From Puia sp. (GTDB lineage Bacteria; Bacteroidota; Bacteroidia; Chitinophagales; Chitinophagaceae): DNA of 64,000 nt. Each line of letters begins with the position of its first letter. Position 1 is the first letter of the stretch. Positions 16 to 63,708 of this stretch are shown piece by piece. The stretch is from contig JARLGZ010000017.1 in assembly GCA_031292515.1 (NCBI GenBank), positions 1 through 64,000 on the forward strand, written 5' to 3'. The notes beneath the pieces were generated by a model. It had not been told where the DNA came from. It did not search any database and worked only from the letters and a program-made list of their open reading frames with translations. The translations under genes and the position numbers were made by a program.

Positions 16-864
16 TTGCCAGCCGTGTCATTAACAAAAAAAGATATTATCGCGCAATTGCAAAGGGAGATCCTTCCCTTGCAAGGGTATAAGCCTCCAT
101 CGGCGGGCGGGGCTGTCGATACAGGTCTGGGGCCGGTGATCGCCGCTTTTCCAAATGCACGTTTTCCTACCGGCGCCGTACACGAATTCCTGAGTGCCGG
201 GCCGGAATGTGCCGCGGCTGCCGGAGGGTTTATGGCGGGTTTACTCGCCGCGCTCATGCAAAAAGAAAGTGTTTGCGTATGGATCAGTTCGTCCCGTACG
301 CTCTTCCCGGCTGCCCTGAAAACCTTTGGGGTCGATCCTTCCCGGATCATTTTTGCAGACCTCAGACGGGAAAAAGATGTTTTGTGGGCGATGGAGCAGG
401 CCCTGAGCTGCGAAGGTCTTGCCGCTGTCGTCGGAGAAATACAGGAAATCGGTTTTACGGCTTCCCGGCGGCTTCAGCTTGCCGTCGAGCAAAGCCGGGT
501 AACGGGTTTTCTCCTACGCCATCGTCCCCGTAATATAAATGCCGTGGCCTGTGTCGCCCGCTGGAGAATCACGCCGCTACCGAGCGCCTCCGATGCGGGG
601 CTGCCGGGAGTGGGTTTTCCCTGCTGGAAGGTAGAGCTGTTAAAAGTCCGTAATGGCAGACCGGGAAGTTGGGTGATCGAATGGTCGGACGGGGCCTTCC
701 ATGCCGTTGAGAAATCCCCGGAAGGAGTATTATCCGGAGAGCTGTTATTGGAGGAAGCTTGCTTTGAAAGGATATCTCCGGAAAAGATATCGTTGGGAAG
801 GATATCACCGGAGGCCGCTTCCCTGGAAGAGGCGCCACAGGAGGAGAGGCGAAAAACGGGGTAA
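16..864 (+). CDS. imuA: ImuA-like protein of the SOS mutasome
   Basis: RecA-fold accessory protein of the ImuA-ImuB-DnaE2 mutasome, which does error-prone translesion synthesis after DNA damage. The N-terminus (KKDIIAQLQREILPLQG) and the central block (PTGAVHEFL, then VWISSSRTLFPAALKTFGVDP and RIIFADLRREKDVLWAMEQAL) are typical of the short Bacteroidota ImuA; there is no intact Walker A loop. The gene stops one base before the imuB ATG, so the two are probably translationally coupled. The TTG at 16 is only the first in-window start: the frame is open to the window edge, so the true start may lie outside. The last 40 residues are a pentapeptide repeat (RISPE/KISLG/RISPE/AASLE) encoded by a 15-bp DNA repeat and are probably a non-conserved tail. 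Family call is firm because of the imuB-dnaE2 neighbours. Confidence 0.85.
   Translation: MPAVSLTKKDIIAQLQREILPLQGYKPPSAGGAVDTGLGPVIAAFPNARFPTGAVHEFLSAGPECAAAAGGFMAGLLAALMQKESVCVWISSSRTLFPAALKTFGVDPSRIIFADLRREKDVLWAMEQALSCEGLAAVVGEIQEIGFTASRRLQLAVEQSRVTGFLLRHRPRNINAVACVARWRITPLPSASDAGLPGVGFPCWKVELLKVRNGRPGSWVIEWSDGAFHAVEKSPEGVLSGELLLEEACFERISPEKISLGRISPEAASLEEAPQEERRKTG
769..828 (+). repeat. In-frame 15-bp tandem repeat at the imuA 3' end
   Basis: Four consecutive 15-bp units (starts 769, 784, 799, 814), the first three sharing GATATC at the same phase. Unit 1 is AGGATATCTCCGGAA. The array encodes pentapeptides at the protein C-terminus. Confidence 0.75.
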
Positions 865-865
865 T

Positions 866-2365
866 ATGGTAAAACGATTTGTAGCAATCTGGTTCCGTCA
901 CCTCCTGACGGACTGGGTGACCCTCCGCCGGCCGCCCCTTCGGCAGGCTCCTTTTGTAATGGCTGCACTTGACCGTGGCCGTATGTTGATCACGGCCGCC
1001 AATCCGGCTGCGCAGGCACAGGGTATCGATGCGGGGATGGCCGCGGCAGATGCAAGGGCCATCCTGCCTGCCTTGCAAGTGCTTAACGACAGACCCGGGT
1101 TATCAGATAAGCTACTCAAGGCATTGGGGGAATGGTGTATCCGCTACACCCCGATCGCCGCCGTCGATGCCCCCGATGGGCTGATCCTGGAAGTGACCGG
1201 CTGCGCCCATCTCTGGGGCGGAGAACAGCCCTATTTCAGGGAGATCGTTAACCGGCTCAGAGGATCGGGATACGATGTGCGGGCTGCCATGGCCGATACC
1301 ATCGGCGCAGCCTGGGCGATTGCCCGTTTTGGCGAGGTGACACCCCTGATAGAGAGCGGGGAACAGGCATCCGCCCTGCTTCCCCTGCCGCCGACCGCTC
1401 TTCGCCTCGAACCGGCCGTTCTGGAGCGTATGCAAAGACTCGGGTTGCACAAGCTCCATCATTTTATGGCGATGCCCCGATCCGTTTTACGCCGGCGTTT
1501 CGGCCCCGGTCTGCTTCACAGAATGGATCAGGCCTTGGGTCAGGAAGACGAACCCATCACGCCTTTACGGTCTCCTGAACCCTATCACGAACGCCTCCCC
1601 TGCCTGGAACCGATTGTAACAGGCCCCGGTATCGAAATCGCTTTACAGCGTTTGCTGGAAACGCTCTGTCATCGTCTCCGCCAGGAGGGGAAGGGTCTTC
1701 GCGAAGCTATATTCAGGGGTTATCGCGTAGACGGCAAGGTCGAGCAGATCGGCATCGGCACCCATCGCCCCTCACACCATGCGGATCATCTTTTTAAATT
1801 GTTTGCCATCAAAATACCTGATATAGAACCTGCCCTGGGTATCGAGCTTTTCACGCTGGAAGCTGTGAGAGTGGAACCCCTCCCCCCCTTGCAGGAGACA
1901 CTATGGGGAGGGTCCGGCAGTCTTGATGATATCGGAGTAGCGGAACTGCTGGACCGGCTGACCGGCAAACTCGGCGCTCAGGCGATCCATCGTTATTTAC
2001 CCGATGAACATCATTGGCCGGAAAGAAGTATAAAACCGGCCGCTTCGCTCGCAGAAAGAGAAACGACCTCCTGGCGGACCGATCGGCCCCGGCCTATCCA
2101 GCTATTGTCAAAACCCGAACGAATCGAAGTGACCGCTCCCATCCCCGACTACCCACCCATGCTCTTTCGCTACAGGGGCAGGCTGCATACCATAAAAAAG
2201 GCAGATGGCCCCGAGCGGATCGAACGCGAGTGGTGGCTCGAAGAAGGACCCCATCGCGACTATTATATCGTGGAGGACGAGGAAGGCGGCCGTTACTGGC
2301 TATTCCGGTCCGGTCATTATACCGAGGATAAACCCGAATGGTTTCTTCATGGCTTTTTCGCCTGA
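866..2365 (+). CDS. imuB: ImuB, Y-family polymerase-like mutasome subunit
   Basis: 499-residue Y-family DNA polymerase homologue that bridges the sliding clamp, ImuA and DnaE2 rather than synthesising DNA itself. Palm-like start VKRFVAIWFRHLLTDW and the block YTPIAAVDAPDGLILEVTGCAHLWGGE correspond to the two catalytic regions of DinB, but the usual acidic residues of DinB (first Asp of the DMDAFFA motif and the SIDE Asp/Glu pair) are not present, as known for ImuB. Little-finger-like region about 235-340 and a C-terminal ImuB-specific domain (PIPDYPPMLFRYRGRLH) follow. ATG at 866 is chosen over an in-frame upstream start at 701, which would overlap imuA by 160 bp. dnaE2 starts 37 bp downstream. 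Part of one operon. Confidence 0.9.
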   Translation: MVKRFVAIWFRHLLTDWVTLRRPPLRQAPFVMAALDRGRMLITAANPAAQAQGIDAGMAAADARAILPALQVLNDRPGLSDKLLKALGEWCIRYTPIAAVDAPDGLILEVTGCAHLWGGEQPYFREIVNRLRGSGYDVRAAMADTIGAAWAIARFGEVTPLIESGEQASALLPLPPTALRLEPAVLERMQRLGLHKLHHFMAMPRSVLRRRFGPGLLHRMDQALGQEDEPITPLRSPEPYHERLPCLEPIVTGPGIEIALQRLLETLCHRLRQEGKGLREAIFRGYRVDGKVEQIGIGTHRPSHHADHLFKLFAIKIPDIEPALGIELFTLEAVRVEPLPPLQETLWGGSGSLDDIGVAELLDRLTGKLGAQAIHRYLPDEHHWPERSIKPAASLAERETTSWRTDRPRPIQLLSKPERIEVTAPIPDYPPMLFRYRGRLHTIKKADGPERIEREWWLEEGPHRDYYIVEDEEGGRYWLFRSGHYTEDKPEWFLHGFFA

Positions 2366-63400: not shown

Positions 63401-63645
63401 GCACCGCCATGATCGCCGGGATGATTCCCATGGCGCTCGGTCTGTCCGAAGGCGGAGACCAGACGGCACCCCTGGGTATCGCCGTCATCGGCGGCCTCAT
63501 CTTTTCCGCATTCAGCGTGCTTTTCTTCCTGCCTCATGTCTACCAATGGCTGACCGGCAGAAAGGCCTACCGGCCCGTATCGCTGTTTCCGGATGACAGA
63601 TCCGCCCACGAAAAAAAAGATAATCTTAACATTCAACCTGATTAG
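60487..63645 (+). CDS. RND efflux pump, inner-membrane subunit (AcrB/CusA superfamily)
   Basis: 1052 residues, 12 TM helices in two halves with large periplasmic loops. Start [45 protein letters not shown]; porter loop FPP-type [16 protein letters not shown]; TM4 [24 protein letters not shown] with the proton-relay Asp; second half [59 protein letters not shown] and [20 protein letters not shown]. The VDEAT at TM4 differs from the VDDA of AcrB. The order TolC-RND-adaptor is unusual only in having the adaptor last. Substrate not readable. Last codons and TAG stop are inside a 16-bp repeat. Confidence 0.92.
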   Translation: [1052 protein letters not shown]

Positions 63646-63708
63646 CGTTCAACACGATTAGCATTCAACATGATCAACATTCACCCTTATTAATATTCTC
63701 ATGATTAA
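63630..63708. repeat. 16-bp tandem array x 5 starting in the RND stop codon
   Basis: CATTCAACCTGATTAG (last codons and TAG stop of the pump gene), CGTTCAACACGATTAG, CATTCAACATGATCAA, CATTCACCCTTATTAA, TATTCTCATGATTAA, in exact register. Confidence 0.9.

Follow-up and report, generated by a model that had tools for sequence, protein, structure and literature searches.

Bacterial minisatellites, or variable-number tandem repeats (VNTRs), have units of 10–100 bp, degenerate copies and hierarchical units, and are commonly regarded as typing markers scattered along genomes. Here we analyze tandem arrays in a 64-kb stretch of DNA from Puia sp. (Chitinophagaceae), hereafter the window, which comprises bases 1–64000 of the 108-kb contig C55 (JARLGZ010000017.1) in a 7.34-Mb assembly of 285 contigs. 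This genome carries several times more arrays than the sampled relatives; they are mostly intergenic and often placed at stop codons, and they look locally grown and kept where they are harmless. Their nearest analogue is the tandem direct repeats of Borgs, linear archaeal extrachromosomal elements (Schoelmerich et al. 2023, PMC9879509). Other described systems are the TAACTGA heptamer direct repeats of Beggiatoaceae, cyanobacteria and Bacteroidetes (MacGregor 2015, PMC4679880), the repetitive extragenic palindromes and bacterial interspersed mosaic elements (REP/BIME; PMC3733652), and a single minisatellite within a miniature inverted-repeat transposable element of Porphyromonas gingivalis (PMC4596501); what we say of these four papers holds for the parts of their text available to us. 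No account of such an array load in Bacteroidota was among the matches listed in our literature searches.

The arrays described here resemble Borg repeats in that the unit is nearly always private to its array, arrays lie both between and within genes, periods within genes are divisible by three (without exceptions in the Borg paper, with six here), arrays begin in the ends of open reading frames (ORFs), and A is enriched on the strand that carries the gene. Borg repeats are also far rarer in the host genomes surveyed, as are arrays in the sampled relatives of this genome. Unlike the perfect and supposedly very recent Borg units, the copies here are degenerate, and they lie on a bacterial contig with bacterial genes and genome-typical composition. 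The excess of stops over starts reported below has no equivalent measure in the parts of PMC9879509 available to us. The window arrays share an extragenic placement with REP/BIME palindromes but are non-palindromic and have no common sequence, and unlike TAACTGA repeats they are neither heptamers nor dispersed.

Tandem Repeats Finder (TRF; periods 8–60, score at least 50, overlapping rows merged) places 28 arrays in the window (most of them in Table 1). Their copies lie head to tail with units of about 10–100 bp, beyond chance, as in minisatellites, and in the inspected arrays the copies are contiguous, without the unique spacers of a CRISPR array. No Rfam match was found within the window. 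Some arrays have higher-order units (18/36/54, 12/23/46 and 16/31 bp), which fit repeated rounds of copying. A sequence-only reading of the window had listed 17 arrays, 16 of which coincide with a TRF array; the remaining one, at 43405, is a real 15-bp array at about 43408–43471, of which TRF scores only the tail (43438–43471). The arrays themselves were therefore correctly seen, but the statement that nearly every gene border has one was too strong: an array is present in 16 of 37 internal junctions, or in 16 of the 28 that measure 60 bp or more, in a list of 38 genes curated by hand from Pfam matches and our own calls, some of them without a Pfam match. The placement at gene ends holds in part. 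Arrays 25208, 33788, 53654, 56669, 60399 and 63626 span a stop codon, and arrays 26553, 32335, 49254 and 54693 begin 0–42 bp after one, whereas three of the listed arrays (766, 24013 and 55249) are coding and in frame and several noncoding ones (11630, 19672 and 29344) lie upstream of genes.

A sample of 1,003,999 bp of the assembly contains 173 arrays, or 17.2 per 100 kb, from which we extrapolate about 1,100–1,260 arrays for the whole genome, above the counts usual for bacterial VNTRs, which are far fewer per genome. Contig C55 is denser, with 38 arrays in 104 kb (36.5 per 100 kb, 2.4 times the rest of the sample) and 11% of its noncoding bases filled by arrays; without it, 135 arrays remain in 900 kb (15.0 per 100 kb). 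By the same procedure, with one genome per species compared, 24 congeners (1,057,164 bp) yield 55 arrays, or 5.2 per 100 kb (0–19 per 100 kb in single genomes, in samples of 13–80 kb), and 80 Bacteroidota loci centered on cydA (1,622,966 bp) yield 73, or 4.5 per 100 kb. The density here thus exceeds that of the congeners 3.3-fold (2.9-fold without C55) and that of the 80 loci 3.8-fold; 14 small contigs (32 kb, mostly N) were omitted from all densities. Five dinucleotide shuffles of 584 kb, window included, gave 0–3 arrays against 106 in the real sequence, and the noncoding DNA of the sample (171 kb) holds 99 arrays, whereas four shuffles averaged 0.8. This number of arrays, together with their nearly always private units and their excess at stops, allows direct tests of how tandem duplications originate, and the genome offers a bacterial counterpart to Borg repeats.

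The units are unrelated to one another. A comparison of the 173 arrays (blastn-short, E ≤ 1e-3) links only 8, all of which belong to a heptamer family described below and none of which lies in the window, and leaves 165 without a relative in the set, so the earlier claim that the window holds no dispersed family is borne out. Copies are degenerate, with a TRF match of 60–100% in noncoding arrays. The reading frame leaves a clear mark: the period is divisible by three in 43 of 49 coding arrays, with six exceptions, and in 52 of 118 noncoding ones.

Arrays crowd at stop codons and avoid start codons. Across the sample, 34 arrays overlap a stop and 3 overlap a start (heptamers included), and in 53 of 111 junction arrays the midpoint lies no more than 50 bp from a stop, compared with 21% if arrays were uniform over all junction DNA and 35.6 arrays if they were uniform within their own junctions. 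Junctions shorter than 30 bp or longer than 1500 bp were excluded from the overlap counts and the own-junction placement test, and those longer than 1500 bp from a Poisson model fitted to the distances to both end types without heptamers, in which the stop effect is strong (likelihood-ratio test p = 8e-7) and the start effect weaker (p = 0.01). Non-heptamer arrays reach 1.81 per kb at distances of up to 50 bp from a stop and 0.44 per kb where no 3′ end faces, and the density in convergent junctions (heptamers included) is 2.51 per kb at 0–25 bp, 0.31 at 100–200 bp and 0 in the 4.1 kb beyond. Arrays cover 9% of the positions 20–60 bp after stops and 1% of the last 20 bp before starts, and co-directional arrays lean toward the stop side of their own junction (Kolmogorov–Smirnov p = 1e-4, without heptamers). 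Those that span a stop begin at most about one unit before it, which fits a duplicated segment that contains the stop and whose first copy leaves the protein intact. Most position and fold statistics, and the early purine statistics, on the 1.0-Mb sample include one wrong gene call, 53769–54683(−), at the methyltransferase gene; that gene, 53838–54677(+), is correctly called in the window junction count and in the stop-distance purine classes. The sequence-only reading had named two results that would speak against it, gene ends hit no more often than expected and an equal density in relatives, and neither came out.

The sense strand of arrays near stops is rich in purines. In co-directional non-heptamer arrays less than 60 bp from a stop the purine fraction is 0.624 (29 of 38 above 0.5, p = 6e-5), and in convergent ones it is 0.556 (21 arrays, p = 0.04), compared with 0.491 in co-directional arrays further from the stop, 0.508 in divergent and 0.535 in coding arrays. 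Co-directional arrays also exceed the rest of their own junction (0.552 vs 0.516, 64 pairs, p = 0.04), and array-free sequence after stops stands at 0.510. The excess is mainly one of A over T; the G-C skew of non-heptamer arrays, +0.058, is not significant (p = 0.08). Among 67 arrays near stops, heptamers included, the predicted RNA fold has a mean z of −0.94 against −0.31 in controls (the first 150 of 372), with a median of −0.30 and 22% of arrays below −2 against 11% of controls, a comparison that covers the hairpin part of an intrinsic terminator (a stable G+C hairpin followed by a T-run). The same 67 arrays lack the C-rich, G-poor sense strand of Rho utilization (rut) sites, as C exceeds G in 22 of them, and the 115 non-heptamer arrays show no REP/BIME-like inverted partners within 200 bp (longest match 5.68 vs 5.67 in shuffles).

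None of nine window arrays is present in the eight comparable places of G019, the nearest congener found (68–81% identity in aligned DNA), and TRF on 27 kb of that genome reports a single array at a score of at least 50, at another place. The cleanest site is 33803/33890, where both flanks can be aligned and G019 lacks about 37 bp at the array that spans the stop. Judged from these alignments, the window arrays are probably younger than the split from G019. Elsewhere spacing or gene content differs, so that the array is absent but no bare site is seen, and noncoding alignments are weak: in G019 these places show neither an amidotransferase-like gene nor an LMWPc gene, the GH9 N-terminal region is missing, and the divergent junction is longer. 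Relative to G019 the window has extra DNA at 23969–24408 (GH9 N-terminal region), 53203–53820 (LMWPc gene) and 54677–55626 (amidotransferase-like gene).

We consider it fairly probable that the arrays are independent local tandem duplications that accumulated in this lineage with selection acting as a filter. Under this model, 12–30 bp of resident sequence would be duplicated head to tail, by slippage or repair synthesis operating at a raised rate, and the units would then be extended and worn by mutation, such that the lineage gathered several times more arrays than the sampled congeners. Selection would let arrays survive between genes, across stops, where the first copy preserves the stop, and in frame within proteins; few are seen at coding positions out of frame or within roughly 40 bp ahead of a start codon. 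The purine-rich, RNA-like strand of arrays near stops suggests that transcription stalled at gene 3′ ends, or RNA:DNA hybrids formed there, may seed part of the arrays. Local duplication under a selective filter is supported by the frame filter, by units private to each array and by the lack of the compared arrays in G019. The same evidence gives good support to the local amplification that the sequence-only reading had proposed.

Several observations weigh against this account. With one genome per species compared, the copying itself was never directly seen. G019 is 65% complete and differs in gene content or spacing in most compared places, which leaves 33803/33890 and, less cleanly, 56675 as the sole like-for-like sites. 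Array density varies along the genome (variance/mean 1.9 over 50 chunks), and four congeners (G039, G043, G044 and G012) reach 12–19 arrays per 100 kb in 40–60-kb samples. The stop bias is weak in C55 alone (11 of 32 vs 8.0 expected within own junctions); over all junction DNA, the congeners (10 of 29) and the 80 loci (18 of 38) likewise have arrays close to stops, with hardly a bias within own junctions (10 vs 7.1 and 18 vs 13.3 expected), and stop proximity is therefore not necessarily a mark of the process behind the high density of this genome. The purine excess is a post hoc finding and not a prediction, and is treated as a lead. By another measure, arrays 60–250 bp from a stop still reach 0.550 purine (p = 0.017), so the excess is strongest near stops and not strictly limited to 60 bp; a mild purine richness also marks the last 60 nt of genes (0.547), and 31 arrays of the congeners and 80 loci show no significant excess (0.540 vs 0.503, p = 0.14). 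Finally, no loss was found among the three repair-gene families searched (RNase HI, RNase HII and MutS).

Coupling of the arrays to transcript ends is possible, and would account for both the stop effect and the purine-rich strand: at the 3′ ends of genes, R-loops or a stalled RNA polymerase would make the fork collapse, and repair synthesis would duplicate the local sequence, so that arrays arise at stops by mechanism and not by tolerance alone. We entertain this tentatively, as a minority reading. The stop effect is independent of start distance and extends to convergent junctions, which have no promoters, and the purine excess near stops and the lean of co-directional arrays to the stop side point the same way, but the 5′ ends of non-heptamer arrays are not significantly denser at −20 to −1 than at 0 to 39 (25 in 11 kb vs 33 in 21 kb, p = 0.17), G-C skew, the usual mark of R-loops, is not significant in non-heptamer arrays, RNase HI and HII are both present, many window arrays lie upstream of genes, and the congeners show no significant purine excess. 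More doubtful still is a stronger version, in which transcription at gene 3′ ends seeds the duplications through RNA:DNA hybrids or polymerases stalled on purine-rich transcripts just past stop codons, with repair copying 12–30 bp; equally speculative is the corollary that the stop-anchored, sense-oriented heptamer family described below is one such array that has grown able to spread. If true, this would be a strand-asymmetric, stop-anchored bacterial minisatellite load, analogous to but independent of Borg repeats. Crowding just past stops and a fold slightly more stable than that of controls could also suit arrays kept as 3′-untranslated-region elements for termination, protein recruitment or mRNA stability, the selected job that the sequence-only reading had offered beside local amplification. 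We find such a job unsupported and this reading highly unlikely: the arrays share no sequence, their median fold z is −0.30, they lack inverted partners, their sense strand is not C-rich as in rut-like sites, they occupy fewer than half of the window junctions and match no Rfam family there, and the array is missing in G019 where the flanks align.

Two further readings question the load itself. An ordinary minisatellite load under neutral drift, with no raised rate and noticed because the window is dense, seems improbable: similar arrays do occur in congeners, including the four denser ones, and in other Bacteroidota, and C55 represents the densest part of a genome with uneven array density, but the excess over the congener mean, with or without C55, and over the 80 loci disfavors it. 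That C55 owes its density to another organism, as a contaminant or foreign contig, is very improbable. The contig is distinctly denser than the rest, the assembly contamination estimate is 3.2%, and a dedicated scan finds no heptamer array in C55 (a looser count includes one 16-bp array, L205:4589). Against this, its codon usage correlates at 0.994 with that of the largest sampled contig, its 20-kb tetranucleotide correlations (0.874–0.914) fall in the span of values of the other contigs and exceed those of all congener samples shown, of which the highest is 0.871, and 20-kb samples of other contigs, several of which have no array, also reach 6–7 (30–35 per 100 kb). As C55 shares the codon and tetranucleotide signature of the genome, we regard it as the array-rich extreme of a single genome with uneven density.

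At its start, at 16–5657, the window has in a row an ImuA-like ORF (no Pfam match), imuB and dnaE2, which together look like a translesion mutasome cassette. The mutasome was considered as a driver of the arrays and rejected, because it is shared with congeners that have DnaE2 at 66–76% identity and mostly few arrays (none in 80 kb of G014, 1 in 60 kb of G008 and 4 in 80 kb of G002, with higher counts of 8 in 41 kb of G039 and 7 in 60 kb of G012). Loss of repair genes was likewise set aside, as all 19 genomes searched, G000 included, encode RNase HI, RNase HII and MutS-domain proteins. In G000, the MutS frame (L224:2726-5926) is open far upstream of its likely start, and the protein itself looks normal. 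A selected job of providing stops in all three frames was also rejected: the period is divisible by three in 12 of 32 stop-spanning rows, near chance, with a 51-bp row counted as 17 bp and one row doubled, as the ROK gene stands twice in the gene list used.

Outside the window, the genome carries a dispersed, degenerate TSAGTRG heptamer repeat, with 499 matches to a 21-bp pattern (one mismatch allowed) against 84 for a backwards control. Of the 33 genus genomes searched, 30 have no match, and the others with matches are G019 (4) and G044 (13). When only exact matches are counted, the pattern occurs at least once in 31 of 248 genomes of the order, with dozens of matches in a few of other genera, although in some of these the backwards control also has dozens. 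Of 37 heptamer arrays in the own-genome sample, 27 follow a stop in the sense direction, 6 follow a start, 3 are inside called genes and 1 is at a contig end; among the 27, 12 lie in convergent junctions and 23 begin at −18 to +4 of the stop. The window has no match to the heptamer pair pattern and no shared 7-bp unit of the kind found in short tandemly repeated repetitive sequences or TAACTGA repeats. The family is like TAACTGA in being a dispersed short unit with stops in all frames, and TAACTGA repeats can overlap ORF ends by up to 18 nt, but in the main genome studied they mostly stand just before start codons, whereas TSAGTRG sits on stops in the sense direction; the TAACTGA heptamer is also invariant, except in sets that are divided by related 7-mers, whereas TSAGTRG is degenerate and sometimes has an inverted partner (PMC4679880, within the parts available to us). 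A literature search on the letters TSAGTRG gave no related paper among the matches listed. In G157, from another genus of the family, the eight inspected heptamer examples are facing pairs, most of them predicted to fold into long hairpins, and such pairs are possibly terminators or REP-like elements. The backwards control itself has 4 to 74 matches in G015, G006, G016, G117 and G148, all without the forward pattern, which suggests other heptamer families there.

Table 1. Tandem arrays and associated features of the window, with heptamer arrays from elsewhere
Feature	Coordinates	Strand	Context
15-bp × 3.1 array, coding in frame	766..812	+	C-terminal tail of ORF 16-864, upstream of imuB
Likely imuB start	~866		Pfam IMS starts at residue 63 of ORF 701-2365
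16-bp × 7.4 array, 31-bp higher-order unit	11630..11749		45 bp upstream of MacB/FtsX gene 9104-11584(−)
15-bp × 3.8 array, different from its neighbor	11793..11849		Junction that also holds 11630..11749
12-bp × 4.6 array	19672..19726		Divergent junction 19624(−)/20046(+); not found in G019 counterpart
22–23-bp × 2.7 array	19789..19902		Divergent junction 19624(−)/20046(+); not found in G019 counterpart
18-bp array, 36-/54-bp higher-order units, coding in frame	24013..24161	−	GH9 protein, between signal-peptide-like start and CelD_N domain; region missing in G019
17-bp × 7.2 array	25208..25329	−	Across stop codon of MFS gene 25312-26496(−)
19-bp × 2 array	26494..26531		Across start of MFS gene 25312-26496(−)
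23–24-bp × 3.5 array	26553..26635	−	Directly 3′ of stop of ROK gene 26636-27598(−)
18-bp × 5.1 array	29344..29434		1 bp upstream of sigma-70-like ORF 28707-29342(−)
24-bp × 3.7 array	32335..32422	+	42 bp past stop of outer-membrane beta-barrel gene 29851-32292(+)
15-bp × 3.3 array	32504..32552		Same junction as 32335..32422
12/23/46-bp hierarchical pyrimidine-rich array	32560..32657		Same junction as 32335..32422
18–22-bp × 2.6 array	33788..33841	+	Across stop of gene 32766-33803(+)
19-bp × 2.5 array	38390..38436		Upstream of sigma factor gene 37503-38105(−)
15-bp × 2.1 perfect array	41567..41598		Between 41310 and 41929
15-bp × ~4 array	43408..43471		Upstream of AXE1 gene 41929-43266(−)
20-bp × 3.5 array, 96% match	49254..49323	+	Between MacB/FtsX stop (49232) and cytochrome bd subunit I start (49365)
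18-bp × 2 array	52070..52105		274 bp past cytochrome bd subunit II stop; not found after G019 counterpart
17-bp × 5.8 array	53654..53752	+	Unit 1 ends with stop codon of LMWPc gene 53218-53670
30-bp × 2.3 array	54693..54759	+	15 bp past stop of methyltransferase gene 53838-54677(+)
24-bp × 3.3 array, coding in frame, 8-residue repeats	55249..55327	+	Inside glutamine-amidotransferase-like protein
16-bp × 2 array	56669..56700	+	Across stop of SBF-family symporter gene; not found in G019 counterpart
18-bp × 2.8 array	60399..60451	+	Across stop of OEP gene 59014-60405
16-bp × 3.6 array	63626..63683	+	Across stop of AcrB-family gene 60487-63645
TSAGTRG heptamer arrays, own genome	L016:5970-6029; L016:16567-16615; L219:12173-12290; L045:15788-15828		Over or just past stops, sense direction
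Facing heptamer pairs	L265-L272 (G157), e.g. L267:3437-3525, L270:3413-3513; own genome L042:8936-9029		After genes

One further ORF of the window, at about 52773–53255(−), is outside the gene list. The segment 52820–53203 aligns to G019 at 74%, which suggests that this ORF, or one on the opposite strand, is a real gene.

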